DNA from: Candidatus Tayloriibacteriota bacterium
GTDB taxonomy: Bacteria; Patescibacteriota; Minisyncoccia; Phycocordibacterales; PALSA-1337
NCBI GenBank assembly: GCA_023269245.1
Contig: JAHFMB010000015.1
Coordinates: 1 to 13,305 of the forward strand
Length of the DNA stretch: 13,305 bases
Reading direction: 5' to 3'
Positions within the stretch are counted from its first letter, which is position 1. Each line of letters begins with the position of its first letter. The position numbers and the translations under genes are program-made. The notes beneath the pieces were generated by a model. It saw nothing but the letters and a program-made list of their open reading frames with translations, searched no databases and was not told where the DNA came from. Of the stretch, positions 6,980 to 13,305 are shown piece after piece.

Positions 6980-8215
6980 ATGACAGCCAAAAAAAAGAAG
7001 CCTGCAAAGATTGATGCGAAATTTATCCAGTATGATCATCTCGACAAAATCGGTGAGATTGCCGTCTATTACGGCTTCACCCCGATGAAAAGCCCGGGCA
7101 TCATCAAACAAGATCTTGATGCCGCGAAAGATATACTCGAAGGAGACTATGTCGATGATGAGACAGAGCGCCACGGCAAACTGCCCCTTCATGCCGAAGA
7201 AAAAATTGCTGTGATGCGTATGTATCAGGAGCACGATCTCCAGTCGTTGCCTCAGCCGGTCATGATGTATTTCAAAGATCCCTGCCGCGGCGCTATCAAG
7301 AAAAGCGGGTACCATCGCTACGCTGATTTGGAAATTCTCGGTTCATCAGGCGCCATTGCGGAAGCGACATTGATCCAGGCCGCACGCGTGATGCTTATGG
7401 AGCAGGGATACGGATCCACCGCTGTTGAGATCAATTCCATCGGCGACCGCGACTCTATCGCACGATTCGCCCGCGAACTCACCGCCTACTACCGTAAAAA
7501 TATCAACAGCATGACGCCGGAGTGCCGCCAGTTGATGAAGCGGGATGTGTTTGAATTGCTCGCATCTCACGCACCGGGCGCCCGCGAACTCAATGAACAC
7601 GCGCCACGAGCGATGGATTTTCTTTCTGAAACAAGCAAGCGGCATTTGGAGGAGACCCTTGAATATTTGGAAGCCCTCAAGATTCCCTATACCATCAACA
7701 ACGCCCTCATCGGCAACCGCAAATACTGCACCGAGACTATCTTCACTATCGTCAATACCGAAATCGCAGATAAAAAAGGGAAACTGCAGCGCGTACTCGC
7801 CCTCGGCGTCCGCTACAACGGCCTTGCCAAGCGCCTTGCCATGAAGCGCGACATTCCCGGCGTCGGCATATCACTGTTGGTTCCCGACTCAGACCCTCGC
7901 CTGCGCAAACCCGTCAAGAAGATGCGCCGACCAGTAGCCTCATTTATCCAGCTCGGACTCGAATCAAAGCTTATCTCGCTCGAGATTATCGAGAGTCTCC
8001 GCCAGGTAAAAGTTCCTTTGTATCTTTCATTGGCCAAAGATCGTCTTGGCGCGCAGGTATCGTCGGTCGAGAAGTATCACACGCCGTACATTATTGTCAT
8101 GGGCAAAAAAGAAGCCGTCGAGCGTACTGCCATAGTCCGCAAAACCGAAACGCACGCACAAGAGATTGTAACGCTCGAGCTGTTACCGAAACATATGAAG
8201 AAGATCGCCGATTAG
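6980..8215 (+). CDS. Histidyl-tRNA synthetase-like protein with eroded catalytic motifs
   Basis: 411 residues. HisRS homology is clearest in the middle: VEINSIGDRDSIARF (149-163) matches the VLEINSLGD stretch, and LEYLEALKIPYTIN..NRKYCTETIFTIV matches the LGIPYEID..RGLDYYTRTVFE stretch. A C-terminal anticodon-binding-type domain lies at about 318-405 (VPLYLSLAKDRLGAQVSSVEKYHTPYIIVMG). Catalytic signatures are damaged. The FRYERPQxGRxREF motif 2 reads MMYFKDPCRGAIKK, the His-binding RGLDYYTR reads GNRKYCTE, and motif 3 (GVRYNGLAKRL..GVGISLL) lacks the final GxER arginine. It is therefore probably not an ordinary histidine-charging enzyme; a paralog with a regulatory or other RNA-related role is inferred. 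A basic N-terminus (TAKKKKPAK) precedes the domain. No Shine-Dalgarno; 10 nt after lepB. Confidence 0.8.
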   Translation: MTAKKKKPAKIDAKFIQYDHLDKIGEIAVYYGFTPMKSPGIIKQDLDAAKDILEGDYVDDETERHGKLPLHAEEKIAVMRMYQEHDLQSLPQPVMMYFKDPCRGAIKKSGYHRYADLEILGSSGAIAEATLIQAARVMLMEQGYGSTAVEINSIGDRDSIARFARELTAYYRKNINSMTPECRQLMKRDVFELLASHAPGARELNEHAPRAMDFLSETSKRHLEETLEYLEALKIPYTINNALIGNRKYCTETIFTIVNTEIADKKGKLQRVLALGVRYNGLAKRLAMKRDIPGVGISLLVPDSDPRLRKPVKKMRRPVASFIQLGLESKLISLEIIESLRQVKVPLYLSLAKDRLGAQVSSVEKYHTPYIIVMGKKEAVERTAIVRKTETHAQEIVTLELLPKHMKKIAD

Positions 8216-8250: not shown

Positions 8251-8733
8251 ATGATTCACAAAACTATCAAAGAGGGAATTACGAGTGCGTTACGCGCAAA
8301 GGATTCACTGCGTCTTGAGGTACTGCGCGGCCTCAATGCGCTCTGCATGAACGAAATGATTGCTGCCGGCGTTACTACTGAATTTCTTTCTGATGACAAG
8401 GTGCTTGCCCTCATCAAACGCAGCGCCAAGCAACGCAAGGACTCGATTGAGCAATTTGAAAAGGGAGGTCGCACCGATCTTGCCGACAAAGAAAAAGCAG
8501 AACTTGTCATACTCAATTCATTTTTACCAGCACTCATGTCCCGTGATGAGATCACCAAGATTGTGGGGCAGCGCATTGCGGCACTCAAGGATGCAGGTAC
8601 ATTTGATGTAAAAGCAGGCGGCCTGCCTGCCGGACAGGCAGGAAAACTCACCGGCATGATTATGAAAGAGCTGTCAGGCAAGGCGGATGGTGCAGATGTG
8701 AAGGCGGTTATTGATGAGGCCCTGAAAAACTAG
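8251..8733 (+). CDS. yqeY: GatB/YqeY domain protein
   Basis: 160 residues, slightly over the usual size of about 150. YqeY proteins match the C-terminal tail domain of GatB, the tRNA-binding part of the Asp/Glu-tRNA amidotransferase; their exact role is not settled. Family hallmarks are AKDSLRLEVLRGLNA (16-30), LSDDKVLALIKRSAKQRKDSIEQFEKGGRTDLADKEKAE (46-84, given here only as landmarks), FLPALMS, and KLTGMIMKELSGKADG (132-147). Residues 123-130 (GGLPAGQA) form an extra segment encoded by a palindromic insertion that keeps the frame; removing these 24 bp restores a normal family alignment (VKAGKLTG). It follows the HisRS-like gene by 35 nt, so both may be translation-related. No Shine-Dalgarno. 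The C-terminus is intact, so the protein should be functional despite the insert. Confidence 0.9.
   Translation: MIHKTIKEGITSALRAKDSLRLEVLRGLNALCMNEMIAAGVTTEFLSDDKVLALIKRSAKQRKDSIEQFEKGGRTDLADKEKAELVILNSFLPALMSRDEITKIVGQRIAALKDAGTFDVKAGGLPAGQAGKLTGMIMKELSGKADGADVKAVIDEALKN
8614..8642 (+). repeat. Palindromic insertion flanked by GCAGG direct repeats, in frame within yqeY
   Basis: CCTGCCTG (8622-8629) and CAGGCAGG (8635-8642) form a perfect 8-bp stem around a 5-nt loop. GCAGG occurs at 8614-8618 and again at 8638-8642, exactly 24 bp apart, so the extra block is eight codons. Short GC-rich palindromes of this kind (often giving PAGRQ- or PAGQAG-like peptides) recur in many CPR genes as I remember them; a genome scan would confirm this. 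Confidence 0.7.
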
Positions 8734-9235: not shown

Positions 9236-10849
9236 TCACGCCTTTGCGAATGGCTCCAATTCCACAATAAATGTTGACCCCTTCCCTTCTCCATCCGATT
9301 CGGCACGAATAGTGCCATGATGTGCGACAATAATTTCTTTTGCTACAAACAACCCCAGTCCCGTTCCTTTTATATTCGTCTTGTTGGCATTGCCTGCGCG
9401 AGTAAACTTGTTGAATAAATGAGGTAGCGTCTCTGGTGCAATACCGATGCCGGTATCTTTGAGCATAAATACAAACTTATGTTTGGCACGATTGAACGAC
9501 AGCGATACACCCACCGAACCGCTCGGCGTATATTTGAGCGAATTATCAATAAGATTGGCGATGACCTGCTTGAGCTTGTCCCGGTCCGCGGTGATGCGAT
9601 AGTCCGTACCAGCATTCTCCGCGCCAAAAAGGAATTTGACCTTGGTAGCCTTGTCAATATTCGGTTTGAGCTCACCTATCACATCCTCGACAAGTGTTTT
9701 AAAATCGATTGTTTCAAATGCGTACTTCATCGTTCCCAGCTCAATGCGCGTCACGTTCAGATAATCATCAACAATGTTCGTCAGTGTATTCGTCGATTCA
9801 AATATGCGCCCAACCGCGTCCTTTGTCTGGCTCGTGATCTTTCCCATATCCCCTTCTAGAATAAGCGACGCATACCCTTTCATGGCTGTCAGCGGCGCAC
9901 GAAGCTGGTGTGTAGCAAATGACACGAACTCAGATTTCTGGCGGTCAAGCTCGGTAAGGCGAGAATTCGCCTTTTGGAGATCGGCTGCGAGGAGTTCAAT
10001 CTTTTCGCGTTGATTAATTTCCTTAATTACACTTCTTATAATTAAAACGCCAAAAATAACCAGAACTACAAAAAGCCCAGCATCTAAAGATCGATCTAGA
10101 AGTGATTCGTCAAAAAGAACTCTCAGAAAAGCAAATATCCATATAACAAAAACAAGGAGTTGAGTGACAATTACTTTTACATTAAACATTCCAAGACGAA
10201 TAATCGCGTATGAGGTAAAAACAATAAATATCAAAATAAAATAAGGTCCATAATTTACAAATTCAGAATGATTTAGAAGTGGCAAAATCAGATTAGCTAA
10301 GCTTCCAAATAGCACTGATATTCCTAAACCCAGTGAAATACTTTTTGCTTGTTGCTTTTCAACAGGATTATATCCTTTGTAACCATCAAAAATATTTCGA
10401 AATGCAATTACAAGTAAAACTGCAAAATAAATCAAAAAAGCTATATAGAGTGCCCCTGGATTAATTGCTGGGATATTATCAGGAAGAAAGTAAACACTCA
10501 CAATATTCAAGTCAGTTGGAACAAAAGCCAGTAATATACACGTCACAATTACAATGACAATATTCAATCGTTTTGCCTCCACTTTCCTTCTTGGAAATAA
10601 AATTGATAACCGATAAAAAAAATATGCAATAAAAATTGGACCAACAATTGTGACTTTGCTCCAAAATTTTATTATAAATACTTCTGTGGAAGTATCTGTC
10701 ATAAAATTAGCCAAAATCCAAAGAAGAGCACCACAAATTAAGAACAAAAAAGTACGATTCACATCACTCCTCCGATTACTCAAATATACGTATCCAGCCA
10801 ATAAGACTGACAACGCCAACGTCATTATTGATAAAGTATTAAAAATCAT
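9236..10849 (-). CDS. Multi-pass membrane sensor histidine kinase
   Basis: 537 residues. The first 275 are about nine hydrophobic segments (near 4-22, 32-50, 59-82, 96-113, 131-152, 170-192, 202-220, 224-245, 256-273), like the N-terminal 7TM-type sensor regions of some kinases. There is no large extracellular domain, so the ligand may be lipophilic or bound within the membrane. A short linker (EINQREKIELLAADLQKAN) leads to HisKA with phospho-acceptor His314 in ATHQLRAPL. A complete ATPase domain follows: N box NLIDNSLKY (432-440), G1 DTGIGI (465-470), F box LFNKFTRAG, G2 GTGLGL (495-500). HQ replaces the common HE after the histidine. DNA for the kinase half is host-like in composition, while the sensor half is AT-rich, changing near 10015. 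Last gene of a speD operon, starting 2 nt after its neighbour. No response regulator is in the window. Confidence 0.93.
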   Translation of the reverse strand: MIFNTLSIMTLALSVLLAGYVYLSNRRSDVNRTFLFLICGALLWILANFMTDTSTEVFIIKFWSKVTIVGPIFIAYFFYRLSILFPRRKVEAKRLNIVIVIVTCILLAFVPTDLNIVSVYFLPDNIPAINPGALYIAFLIYFAVLLVIAFRNIFDGYKGYNPVEKQQAKSISLGLGISVLFGSLANLILPLLNHSEFVNYGPYFILIFIVFTSYAIIRLGMFNVKVIVTQLLVFVIWIFAFLRVLFDESLLDRSLDAGLFVVLVIFGVLIIRSVIKEINQREKIELLAADLQKANSRLTELDRQKSEFVSFATHQLRAPLTAMKGYASLILEGDMGKITSQTKDAVGRIFESTNTLTNIVDDYLNVTRIELGTMKYAFETIDFKTLVEDVIGELKPNIDKATKVKFLFGAENAGTDYRITADRDKLKQVIANLIDNSLKYTPSGSVGVSLSFNRAKHKFVFMLKDTGIGIAPETLPHLFNKFTRAGNANKTNIKGTGLGLFVAKEIIVAHHGTIRAESDGEGKGSTFIVELEPFAKA

Positions 10850-10851
10850 GA

Positions 10852-11763
10852 TTATTTTCTATGTTGTACAACATGATAATGTTGCGAATCAATTCTTCGC
10901 CTTTCAATAATCCGTGCTTGTTTGACTATACGAGTAAAATGATGTAACAAGGGGTTCACATTTTTTGAATGATCAAATCCCATAATTGCACCTTCCGGTA
11001 AATCATCAATTATATGTTCTATCAAAGAGATTGAATACCTTCTACCTCGAAAATTTTTGTCAATCGCAAGACCCATAAAATAAAACGCCAATTTCTTGCC
11101 ACATTCAACTGGATAATTTTCTTGAAAATAATCCTCACTTATCCATGGCGTATTAGAAAAATCATTAGTAACCAACCCTATACCAATAATGAATCCTTCG
11201 GGAGGCTTTAATAGATATTTCCGTACTGATGTGCTTTTTAAAACACTAAAAAAGTGTTCCTTGTCTAGACTTTGTTTACATGGTGTTATCTTATTGACTG
11301 GTTCAAAGGTTTCGCCATAAATTTCCCAAAGCCGATTCATTTCTGTAATATCTGAGACAACGAAATCTAGTTTAATATCTACAGAACTCATGTCTGATCT
11401 AATTTTGGAAATTCGTAACCGCCTAAAGAAAAAAAATATTGAGATTAAAAGGATCAAGAATACAAGTATATAAATATATATCGGTAAATTCGACCCAAAA
11501 AACACTATGTATGCATACGGCATCATTCTACCAAATAAATGTACATAGACACCTGACAGCGCCGTTGAGTTCCAGGTAAATTTACCTTTAAAGTTTAACG
11601 AGTGAACGTCTGACCATTTTAATTTTCGTGCCGTTCCATAAATAAGCAGAAAATAACCAAGATAAAAAGGAATAAAAGAAACAAAATAAACAAAGATAAA
11701 AACACGAGCATCGAGATTGTGCATCACTATAAGGCTATTGAGTGTGTCTGATATGAATTCCAT
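10852..11763 (-). CDS. Membrane-anchored GNAT-like acyltransferase-related protein
   Basis: 303 residues. The N-terminal third has about three membrane segments (21-43 VFIFVYFVSFIPFYLGYF, about 74-90, 94-113), then a basic stop-transfer RRLRISKIR. From about 130 the chain reads as a soluble cytoplasmic GNAT-like domain: a first strand and helix (DFVVSDITEMNRLWEIYGETF), GFIIGIGLV as a central strand, and FYFMGLAIDKNFRGRRYSISLIEHII (227-252 region) at motif A, the CoA-binding strand-loop-helix. In ordinary GNATs the loop is R/QxxGxG/A; here RGRRYS replaces RGKGIG, so acetyl-CoA binding is uncertain and acyl-ACP or another donor is possible. Function is inferred. It lies between speD (6-nt gap) and the sensor kinase (2-nt gap), so it is surely co-transcribed; the SpeD product is a natural candidate substrate. 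Confidence 0.7.
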   Translation of the reverse strand: MEFISDTLNSLIVMHNLDARVFIFVYFVSFIPFYLGYFLLIYGTARKLKWSDVHSLNFKGKFTWNSTALSGVYVHLFGRMMPYAYIVFFGSNLPIYIYILVFLILLISIFFFFRRLRISKIRSDMSSVDIKLDFVVSDITEMNRLWEIYGETFEPVNKITPCKQSLDKEHFFSVLKSTSVRKYLLKPPEGFIIGIGLVTNDFSNTPWISEDYFQENYPVECGKKLAFYFMGLAIDKNFRGRRYSISLIEHIIDDLPEGAIMGFDHSKNVNPLLHHFTRIVKQARIIERRRIDSQHYHVVQHRK

Positions 11764-11769
11764 GTGATG

Positions 11770-12156
11770 CTAAGCAATATTTTTCTTAGGATATTGTTTT
11801 CCGCGAACAACAAAATTTGATTCAATATCCACCAATAAAAACGTGTCCCTAATGAAGTCTGTAATCATCTTGACATCTAAATTGTTTTGGCATGTATAGA
11901 CATCTGCACTCACAAAGCGTCTCGCTGGAAAAGTGTGGATACTTATATGACTCTCTTGTATAACAACAAAACCGCTCCATCCCCCAGGATCTTTTATATT
12001 ATTACCAGGAGCATAAAAGACTTGGGCATCAGATAATGATCTCATACCTAAATCAGCGACAAGTTGGTTTAGAAAACTTAAAACTATGTCTTTGTCATTA
12101 AGCTTCCGATTATCACCACCATAGCCATCAATCATTAAGTGTTCTCCGAAATGCAT
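11770..12156 (-). CDS. speD: AdoMet decarboxylase family proenzyme (SpeD)
   Basis: 128 residues, the normal size of the short prokaryotic form. The family is self-cleaving and pyruvoyl-dependent. The cleavage site is clear: Glu68-Ser69 in QESHISIHTFPARRFVSADVYTC, where Ser69 becomes the pyruvoyl group, with His74 and Cys89 at the places of T. maritima His68 and Cys83. The expected reaction makes decarboxylated AdoMet for spermidine synthesis. However, relatives of SpeD that decarboxylate L-ornithine or L-arginine have been reported in bacteria and archaea, so substrate cannot be assigned from sequence alone. No spermidine synthase lies nearby. It starts the operon with the GNAT-like and kinase genes. 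An extended -10 ends 6 nt before the ATG, so the mRNA should be leaderless. The gene sits in the AT-rich island. Confidence 0.92.
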   Translation of the reverse strand: MHFGEHLMIDGYGGDNRKLNDKDIVLSFLNQLVADLGMRSLSDAQVFYAPGNNIKDPGGWSGFVVIQESHISIHTFPARRFVSADVYTCQNNLDVKMITDFIRDTFLLVDIESNFVVRGKQYPKKNIA

Positions 12157-12162
12157 GAAAAT

Positions 12163-12171
12163 ATTGTATCA
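12163..12171 (-). promoter_or_regulatory. Extended -10 promoter (TGATACAAT) of the speD operon
   Basis: TACAAT on the minus strand (five of six consensus bases) is preceded by TGA, an extended -10. Six bases separate it from the ATG at 12156, so transcription should start at or within a base of the A of ATG: a leaderless operon mRNA. No -35 is evident. Confidence 0.55.
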
Positions 12172-12220
12172 TGTATTTACCTATGGTGGGAATCTGTTTT
12201 TACAGTACCATTGAATACGG

Positions 12221-12248
12221 TTCAGAATGCGCAAACATTCATTAATAT
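12221..12248 (+). promoter_or_regulatory. Weak promoter for the kinase-less sensor, with a small inverted repeat
   Basis: TTCAGA (12221-12226), a 16-bp spacer and TAATAT (12243-12248) each match four of six consensus bases. The ATG follows 5 nt later. GAATG (12225-12229) and CATTC (12236-12240) form an inverted repeat inside the spacer and could be an operator shared with the divergent speD operon. Speculative. Confidence 0.3.
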
Positions 12249-12253
12249 AACGT

Positions 12254-13180
12254 ATGTCCCTCCACGTAATACCAATTATTGTAATTTTTACTAATATTTG
12301 TCTCGGGGCTTTTGTGTACTCACAGGGCCCAGGCAACACGAGTAATAAAATATTTTCGTTATTATGTTTTTTTGCTGCACTTTGGAACGCTTCGAACTTT
12401 TTTGCTGATACATTCGTATCAATATTTTGGCTTCAAACAACTTTTGCAATTGGAGCGATATTTATTTCTATTGGATTGGTGTGGGTTCATATAGTTTCTG
12501 GCACCCCAGCTAGACATAAGAAAATACATATGATTATTCTGTTCGGTTTATTGTTTGCTTTAATATCATATACACCAAATCTTATTGCCAGATCAATCAG
12601 CGAAACAAGCTCGAGTAATGTCTTCTATGGTAGTCTAGGATGGGGTCTGTTTCTATATGCAATTTATTATTTCACGTATTGCTTTTTGATTATTAAAAAG
12701 TTGATTGAAACACGACGAAATAACAGCAACCAAAGAAACCGTACCCAAATAACAAACATCTTAATCGGTACAATAATTGTACTTGTAGTAATAACAATCA
12801 CAAGTTTCGTCGCTCCGTATTTTTTTTCATTATTTATTTCAAGCACATTCGATAGTCTTGGTCTTTTGATTTTTTTAATTTTTCTTACCTACACAATAGT
12901 AAAATACCACTTTTTTAATATCAAAATTATAGCTATAGAGATAGCCACTTTCAGTCTATGGACTATCATCTTAGGAAAATTATTGCTTTCCAAAACTTCC
13001 GATGAACTCCTCCTCACAACAAGCCTCCTGGCAATCAGCATCATTTTCGGCATCCTCATCATTCGCAGCACGCTCCACGAAATTGAGCAGCGCGAACATA
13101 TTGAAAAACTTACATCTAATCTGCAAACGGCGTACAAAACTATAGGCGAAAAAGACCCGCCAAACCGAGCTACCCCTTGA
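12254..13180 (+). CDS. Kinase-less membrane sensor paralogous to the neighbouring histidine kinase
   Basis: 308 residues, with about eight or nine membrane segments laid out like the first 290 residues of the kinase encoded at 9236-10849. The match is strongest at the end: IIFGILIIRSTLHEIEQRE (263-281) against VIFGVLIIRSVIKEINQRE, with QRE at 279-281 versus 280-282. Just after LTSNLQTA the homology stops. The tail KTIGEKDPPNRATP is unrelated and the HisKA and ATPase domains are absent. The stop overlaps the end of the convergent gene by 11 bp, as expected if a deletion removed the kinase half. It may be a decaying gene, or a stand-alone receptor or decoy working with the intact kinase. DNA from about 12990 is less AT-rich than the rest of the gene. 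Confidence 0.8.
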   Translation: MSLHVIPIIVIFTNICLGAFVYSQGPGNTSNKIFSLLCFFAALWNASNFFADTFVSIFWLQTTFAIGAIFISIGLVWVHIVSGTPARHKKIHMIILFGLLFALISYTPNLIARSISETSSSNVFYGSLGWGLFLYAIYYFTYCFLIIKKLIETRRNNSNQRNRTQITNILIGTIIVLVVITITSFVAPYFFSLFISSTFDSLGLLIFLIFLTYTIVKYHFFNIKIIAIEIATFSLWTIILGKLLLSKTSDELLLTTSLLAISIIFGILIIRSTLHEIEQREHIEKLTSNLQTAYKTIGEKDPPNRATP

Positions 13181-13305
13181 GTTCAGCCACCTTGGCCATA
13201 ATCGCGTTCGCTTCCTGTTTGCACTGCTGGGCCAAGAGCTCAGAGGCTCCATTCAATGCTCCGGGATCTATAGATGGCATGACAGGCTCTCCAAATGACA
13301 CCGTT
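13170..13305 (-). CDS. C-terminal end of a protein, possibly a PlsC-type acyltransferase
   Basis: Only the last 44 or so codons are inside the window, read on the minus strand to a TAG at 13172-13170. The peptide runs TVSFGEPVMPSIDPG to AIMAKVAELKG. V(x)FGEPV followed by a Leu/Ala-rich closing helix resembles the C-terminus of 1-acylglycerol-3-phosphate acyltransferases (PlsC), but 44 residues without the HxxxxD motif cannot prove it. It is convergent with the sensor gene and overlaps it by 11 bp. Host-like composition suggests it lies outside the AT-rich island. Confidence 0.55.
   Translation of the reverse strand, partial: TVSFGEPVMPSIDPGALNGASELLAQQCKQEANAIMAKVAELKG

Follow-up and report, generated by a model that had tools for sequence, protein, structure and literature searches.

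The window, meaning the whole 13,305-nucleotide stretch of Candidatus Tayloriibacteriota DNA analyzed here (genome G000, estimated to be 83% complete), carries a candidate signaling operon in which a SpeD-family decarboxylase and a membrane-anchored GNAT protein (GNATm) stand ahead of a sensor kinase, with a kinase-less sensor gene diverging from them. A sequence-only reading had proposed this trio and its divergent paralogue, and all of these genes prove real:

11770..12156, reverse strand: SpeD-family pyruvoyl decarboxylase, 128 aa (PF02675, E 3.3e-23; PDB alignment, motif, quick tree)
10852..11763, reverse strand: membrane GNAT (GNATm), 303 aa (family alignment, AF2 model, fold search)
10025..10849, reverse strand: sensor half of the kinase, residues 1-275, seven-transmembrane (7TM) region and linker (PF16927, identity profile, GC content at third codon positions (GC3), trees)
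9239..10024, reverse strand: kinase core, residues 276-537, HisKA and HATPase_c (Pfam, core identity, GC3)
12254..13180, forward strand: divergent kinase-less 7TM sensor paralogue, 308 aa

PF16927, HisKA, and HATPase_c all score above their cut-offs in the kinase, which is thus a 7TM histidine kinase, and on sequence evidence it is composed of two parts with different histories. We regard the apparent joint exchange of signal-making genes and sensor half on a resident kinase as a stronger finding than the trio itself.

Searching the 34 genus genomes at E ≤ 1e-60 recovered the kinase core in 20, window included. It is 69–81% identical to that of the window in 18 congeners and 48% identical in G577, where it lacks a sensor half. 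Among 19 genus kinases (169 usable pairs), cores are 62–87% identical (median 71), compared with 12–76% (median 23) for the sensor halves of the same pairs. Measured over 40-residue segments, mean identity between the window kinase and those of 16 congeners breaks sharply, from 18–35% up to residue 280 to 57–87% in segments starting at residue ≥ 261. Most congeners show the reverse of G385 (Candidatus Taylorbacteria; same order, other family), whose kinase is 52.4% identical to the window's in the sensor half and 36.9% in the core (28–72% and 18–55% by segment). In its sensor half and GNAT the window resembles the other family, and in its core its own genus.

GC3, a measure that lessens but may not remove the codon-use effect of membrane proteins, also breaks within the kinase gene. 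It is 0.215 in the sensor half and 0.511 in the core, with 0.276 in GNATm, 0.302 in SpeD, and 0.48–0.61 in six other measured window genes. The body of the kinase-less gene has a GC3 of 0.298 and its terminal linker (12989-13177) 0.524; the GC-poor stretch therefore extends from ∼10.0 to 13.0 kb, and both of its ends fall inside sensor genes. Lower GC3 in the sensor half was seen in 17 of 17 other genus kinases measured, with a median difference of 0.24 and a few differences of only 0.01–0.02.

The enzymes encoded ahead of the core vary across the genus. SpeD and GNATm occupy this place in the window and in G562; a FeeM-like (FeeM/LuxI-like) GNAT with a methyltransferase in G586, G589, and G573; and a CoaC-like flavoprotein with CoaB-like and transglutaminase-like genes in G580, G568, and G574. 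A BioF/Kbl-type synthase lies directly upstream in G572, and in G581 it is accompanied by an acetoacetate-decarboxylase-like and a PEMT/ICMT-like gene in between. Other types in the genus are Methyltransf_20 (G576), HAD (G582), EamA (G575), and Shikimate_DH-like (G588), and G590 has the end of a NifS-like gene that is cut by the contig. Directly upstream of the G592 kinase, whose sensor half falls short of a PF16927 match, is a pyruvoyl histidine decarboxylase (PF02329, 1.5e-42; L275:7003-7854), a third pyruvoyl amine-maker family at the kinase locus.

We compared sensor halves and cores across 16 loci in a permutation test, using enzyme labels that we assigned after seeing the genes. Sensor halves were 40.3% identical in same-enzyme pairs vs 22.3% in the others (7 and 113 pairs), and 1 of 20,000 label shuffles gave a value as high; the core showed no signal (difference −2.0; 16,727 of 20,000 shuffles as high). 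Merging the two BioF-like loci again left 1 of 20,000 shuffles as high. The sensor signal stems from the SpeD plus GNATm and the FeeM plus methyltransferase groups. The test omits G587, G591, and G563, where a contig end cuts the upstream genes, and G577, which has no sensor half; sensor identities involving omitted loci include 76% for G563–G592 and 44% for G591–G582.

A comparison of tree topologies, suggested by the sequence-only reading as a check, shows that sensor half and core conflict and that the sensor half tracks the enzymes. On the sensor tree (38 rows), the window, G562, and G385 form one clade (support 100/99), which G206 joins (96/92). On the core tree, the window and G562 fall within their own genus (100/99), G562 grouping with the other-type G580 and G590 (100/100), and G385 lies elsewhere. 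Approximately unbiased (AU) tests of clades named after the first trees had been seen reject the window–G562–G385 clade on core data (p-AU 2.4e-9) and the genus clade on sensor data (p-AU 1.6e-34). Counted over the 26 labelled rows of the 38, enzyme labels change 9 times on the sensor tree against a shuffled mean of 17.3 (lowest 14; 0 of 500 shuffles as low) and 16 times on the core tree against the same mean of 17.3 (105 of 500 as low).

The trio is also conserved outside the window, the point on which its proposal had been made to depend. In the congener G562 (L003/L232), SpeD, GNATm, and kinase follow in the same order, with gaps of 18 and 1 nt. In G385 (L002), a pyruvoyl arginine decarboxylase (PvlArgDC; PF01862, 1.9e-29) replaces SpeD with gene order kept, and PvlArgDC, GNAT, and 7TM kinase occur together in three further families (G206, G228, and G327), PvlArgDC being divergently oriented in G228 and a 251-aa gene plus an opposite-strand gene intervening in G327. 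PF16927 was detected in 11 of 12 chosen genomes; 8 of these have a single copy, which either belongs to an enzyme cassette or has SpeD nearby. The proposed linkage of synthesis and sensing is thereby supported: the combination of decarboxylase, GNAT, and 7TM kinase is seen repeatedly, and the sensor half goes with the enzymes. A hint of more linked SpeD–GNATm pairs comes from six homologue pairs on equally sized contigs (6403, 5114, 43238, 761713, 6051, and 5258), drawn from the best 120 of 1912 SpeD matches.

Patescibacterial PvlArgDC proteins come in two kinds (L133-L143, L017-L019). None of the seven Pfam-close ones (1e-52 to 1e-64) has a kinase within five genes; of the seven divergent ones (1e-20 to 1e-28), three have a GNAT and a 7TM kinase, L142 is near another kinase, and three have none. 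L142, L089, L081, and L019 look like a second family of amine-plus-GNAT signaling loci, sharing a stretch between a SpeD-family protein or PvlArgDC, a histidine kinase, and an LPG_synthase_C-type acyltransferase (called by Pfam in L019 and L089 and by similarity in L142 and L081). L142, L089, L082, and L081 additionally share a membrane protein and one of ∼92 aa, which are fused in L081.

GNATm consists of a helical N-terminal part (residues 1-126) and a GNAT domain (124-303), and its family of 47 members, itself counted, has 33 invariant columns across 30 aligned rows. The AF2 model and fold search predict a GNAT fold. The suggested kinship to autoinducer synthases holds to the extent that the predicted domain resembles FeeM and LasI among many other GNATs, generic GNATs matching equally well or better (1wwz, 14.8); no window gene matched Pfam Autoind_synth (PF00765) or FeeM at E ≤ 1. 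GNATs typically carry a Q/R-x-x-G-x-G/A loop, which the distant members P0041, P0043, and P0023 resemble, while many others have RGNxYS. Small proteins like the N-terminal part occur separately from the GNAT domain in other loci: of 12 matching genomes in the phylum sample, the 8 other than the window genome, G206, G228, and G327 match mainly in this part, and G101 and G130 encode it as a short protein of its own, in line with genes for a ThiF protein, a methyltransferase, and a 7TM kinase (Pfam run on G101 alone). A scan of viral contigs with the GNATm alignment returned no relative.

The window SpeD aligns its Ser69, His74, and Cys89 with Ser63, His68, and Cys83 of the Thermotoga maritima enzyme, positions whose roles in self-cleavage (Ser) and catalysis (His, Cys) are described in Li et al. 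2023 (PMC10407285). Its motif is an HTFPxR variant where T. maritima has HTWPE, so that Phe and Ala stand at the T. maritima Trp70 and Glu72 positions; we take Glu72 to be a ribose contact. Against TIGR03330 (NCBIfam) it scores 73.9 bits, with a cut-off of 75.65. On a quick tree, 18 HTFPxR rows of 62 lie on one side of a branch (SH-aLRT 83), set apart from the T. maritima and Aquifex S-adenosylmethionine (AdoMet) decarboxylases (SH-aLRT 83–84) and from the SpeDC-like group. The diagnostic Gln-Thr-Phe-Tyr set of SpeDC is not present: ESHISIHTFPARRFVSADVYTC lacks the pattern seen in rows such as L083, whose assignment to SpeDC is our own reading.

A kinase lies within five genes of 5 of 6 HTFPxR-type SpeD genes (the miss being L078) vs 3 of 65 others (Fisher p 2.5e-5), a count that excludes the window and L003, on which the motif had been picked. 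The survey entered 73 SpeD places, two without an open reading frame (ORF); in 2 of the remaining 71 (L092 and L107) the picked ORF lies on the opposite strand. Left out of the 79 rows were the fused-frame rows G154, G283, G134, and G375:C18, the window, and a second G015 piece. A SpeD domain in open frames of ∼430–480 aa, apparently a fusion, is found in many genomes of family f61. Spermidine synthase had no match in G000, G206, or G327, G000 being the 83%-complete window genome, and a Spermine_synth match is present in 5 of 11 searched genomes. In Li et al. 2023 (PMC10407285), SpeD homologues are reported to have turned into arginine or ornithine decarboxylases, CPR (Candidate Phyla Radiation) bacteria included, and a missing spermidine synthase serves as one sign of changed activity.

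We consider it probable that the locus holds a signal-synthase and receptor cassette that was swapped in one piece, ahead of a kinase core already resident. SpeD, or PvlArgDC in relatives, would act as an amino acid decarboxylase, converting most likely arginine to agmatine, and the membrane-anchored GNATm would acylate the amine at the membrane. The acylated product would exit the cell or remain in the membrane, might serve between cells, and would be sensed by the 7TM half of the same-operon kinase, which would switch the conserved core. Synthesis genes and sensor half would be inherited and exchanged jointly, displacing an earlier pair before the resident core. What the sequences themselves show is the set of genes and their linkage, the predicted GNAT fold, the replacement of one decarboxylase by another, and a sensor half that is exchanged along with the enzymes on a conserved core; substrate, product, acyl transfer, sensing, and use between cells are inferred. 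The putative synthase genes are linked to a receptor kinase, as they would be in quorum sensing, and GNATm and SpeD would make the kinase's ligand.

Several observations weigh against this reading. Similarity had been expected within the three CoaBC-like and the two BioF-like loci, but their sensor halves are just 20–28% and 24% identical, respectively. On the sensor tree, G228 and G327, both with PvlArgDC and GNAT, pair elsewhere, and Methyltransf_20 rows are scattered. GNATm is rare, matching in 2 of 34 genus, 2 of 197 order, and 12 of 379 phylum genomes even with the window genome included each time and N-terminal-only matches counted. No response regulator was seen adjoining the kinase within the window, and an acyl carrier protein was matched in 0 of 8 genomes, which makes a LuxI-like acyl-ACP donor unlikely. 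For the decarboxylase, Pro77 (the AdoMet decarboxylase Pro of Li et al.) is retained in the window SpeD, G385 and G228 each hold a Spermine_synth match elsewhere in the genome, and the L082 SpeD, of the same motif class, adjoins a weak Spermine_synth match (7.3e-6), which fits an AdoMet decarboxylase.

The SpeD product had been put forward as either an amine or decarboxylated AdoMet. An amine is favored, with agmatine as the more likely and most economical product because PvlArgDC takes the place of SpeD in relatives; decarboxylated AdoMet has become the less likely of the two. A true AdoMet decarboxylase, with the GNAT acylating decarboxylated AdoMet or an aminopropyl product by LuxI-related chemistry on another second substrate, would accommodate Pro77, a residue that is not conserved in SpeDA arginine decarboxylases (Li et al. 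2023, PMC10407285) and is Ala in some relatives of the window SpeD (L080, L081, and P0124). We nonetheless judge it unlikely, given that PvlArgDC fills the role in G385, G206, G228, and G327, that Glu72 is replaced by Ala, that the window SpeD is placed away from those of T. maritima and Aquifex, and that G000 has no spermidine synthase match. We attach similarly little weight to polyamine homeostasis, in which SpeD would make a polyamine precursor, the GNAT would acetylate excess, and the kinase would report the polyamine level with no exported signal: the three genomes lacking a spermidine synthase match speak against it, and it leaves unexplained why the same core carries other enzymes in congeners and why a change of enzyme in some cases goes with a different sensor half.

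The membrane part of GNATm, the PlsC-like proteins in many fetched stretches (Pfam-confirmed in L232 alone), and the LPG_synthase_C proteins adjoining related loci would all suit an envelope-modification unit, whose enzymes decorate lipids or wall while the kinase monitors the envelope and the product is structural; this is improbable, however, since chemically different enzymes, including LuxI/FeeM-like and BioF-like synthases, occupy the same place before the same core. A recombination hotspot with neighboring genes as cargo and merely fast-evolving sensor halves would fit the large divergence by itself of sensor halves (mostly ∼22% identical) and the CoaBC-like and BioF-like groups without sensor similarity, but is very improbable because sensor similarity, unlike that of the core, follows enzyme type over genus and family borders and because GC3 breaks within the kinase gene.

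We tentatively propose a broader reading, at somewhat less than even probability: one chromosomal place in this patescibacterial genus could act as an exchangeable chemical language. Differing biosynthetic modules (pyruvoyl decarboxylases with or without GNAT, LuxI/FeeM-like GNAT plus methyltransferase, BioF/CqsA-like synthase, and CoaBC-like decarboxylase) would be imported with their cognate sensor half-gene and spliced in frame onto the resident core, leaving displaced receptors such as 12254-13180, and the amine branch would be a new acyl-amine signal class.

The kinase-less 7TM gene is probably such a displaced receptor, and a decoy role is possible. It matches several genus sensor halves, best that of G572 (1.4e-33) and not the window's own (8.8e-24), which argues against recent duplication from the kinase next to it; its match to NCBIfam LIC10906_fam (E 2.5e-7) is under the family cut-off. 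Other loci have a second, divergent sensor-like gene, full length in L274 and L278 and cut before the ATPase domain in L279 (PF16927 and HisKA) and L273 (HisKA). We rejected an inversion switch between the two window genes: their linkers are alike as protein, but the best exact DNA match is 10 nt, and the sole listed inverted pair whose two arms both lie at the linker ends measures 14 nt at 86% (9948-9961 / 13158-13171).

In systems such as comQXPA and agr, signal maker and receptor kinase are linked and vary together, giving communication groups, and the chemistry is that of a modified peptide. The locus described here resembles them in having a putative signal maker and a receptor kinase that are linked and vary together, and in a sensor part that varies with signal genes on a conserved core, with the CoaBC-like and BioF-like loci as exceptions. 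It differs in that small-molecule enzymes of different families, instead of one chemistry, swap with the sensor half (papers on such polymorphic loci include PMC4408185 and PMC4008528).

Bernard et al. 2020 (PMC7567580) describe sensory kinase genes in CPR genomes that have homologues of LuxI or CqsA as neighbors (51 CqsA–kinase and 18 LuxI–kinase cases), and the FeeM/LuxI-like and BioF-like genes here likewise adjoin 7TM kinases. The pyruvoyl-decarboxylase and membrane GNAT cassette and the joint sensor–synthase exchange go beyond the passages of that paper at hand, where the main text makes no mention of decarboxylase, acetyltransferase, polyamine, histidine kinase, recombination, swapping, or horizontal transfer. 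The window SpeD resembles the SpeDA/SpeDC proteins of Li et al. 2023 (PMC10407285) as a CPR SpeD that retains the pyruvoyl, His, and Cys positions and comes from a genome in which spermidine synthase was not matched, and is unlike SpeDC in lacking the Gln-Thr-Phe-Tyr set and having the AdoMet decarboxylase Pro; neither histidine kinase nor acetyltransferase is mentioned in the main text of that paper. Unlike LuxI/FeeM-type synthases, GNATm has an N-terminal membrane part, with no PF00765 or FeeM match and no acyl carrier protein match in the eight genomes. The literature covered, which does not extend to most subscription papers, yielded no earlier description of either the amine cassette or the joint exchange.

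Little is known of how the abundant, mostly uncultured Patescibacteria, believed to live on other cells, sense their kin or hosts. If maker and receptor are exchanged jointly, sequence would suffice to predict the enzyme product that each sensor reads, and the ligands of orphan 7TM kinases could be tested directly in E. coli. Evolution would also have supplied a ready-made set of chimeric kinases, their sensor halves exchanged at a single junction.

PF16927 kinases occur in 165 of 379 phylum genomes. We hand-picked 40 phylum-wide 7TM-kinase neighborhoods, mostly from the upper half of the ranked matches listed, and scanned their upstream genes in part. These include LuxI/FeeM-like GNATs (L188, L192, and L219; L199 weak, below cut-off), methyltransferases (L193, L195, L202, L209, L217, L220, and L221; L191 and L211 below cut-off), ThiF-like proteins, and single cases of DUF362, DDAH, hydrolase, aminotransferase, nitroreductase, and HAD; upstream genes in L194, L197, L200, L210, L213, and L214 had no match. 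A ∼500-aa protein of no known family and a ThiF-like protein accompany the 7TM kinase in L198, L201, L206, L218, and L241. A nitroreductase (Pfam in L198) or homologue is present in L198, L201, L241, and weakly L218. On the sensor tree, L198, L201, and L241 group together with support of 100/100.

Two further features flank the operon and its paralogue:

8251..8733, forward strand: yqeY, on the kinase-core side (PF09424, E 2.6e-35)
13170..13304, reverse strand: C-terminal end of the next gene, 44 aa plus stop, cut by the window end

yqeY is present in 11 of 19 other fetched genus stretches and among the kinase's listed neighbors in 8. At 6980-8215, the window encodes a 411-aa protein in which Pfam finds just the anticodon-binding domain PF03129. 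The gene end at 13170..13304 overlaps the end of the kinase-less ORF and, judged by eye from its translation, appears to be that of a PlsC-type acyltransferase; it matched none of the ORFs of the fetched loci. The gene upstream of SpeD in G562 (L232) is PF01553 (E 9.4e-16), and the record of the GNATm homologue P0040 carries a PF01553 acyltransferase domain, possibly through fusion with a PlsC-like neighbor.

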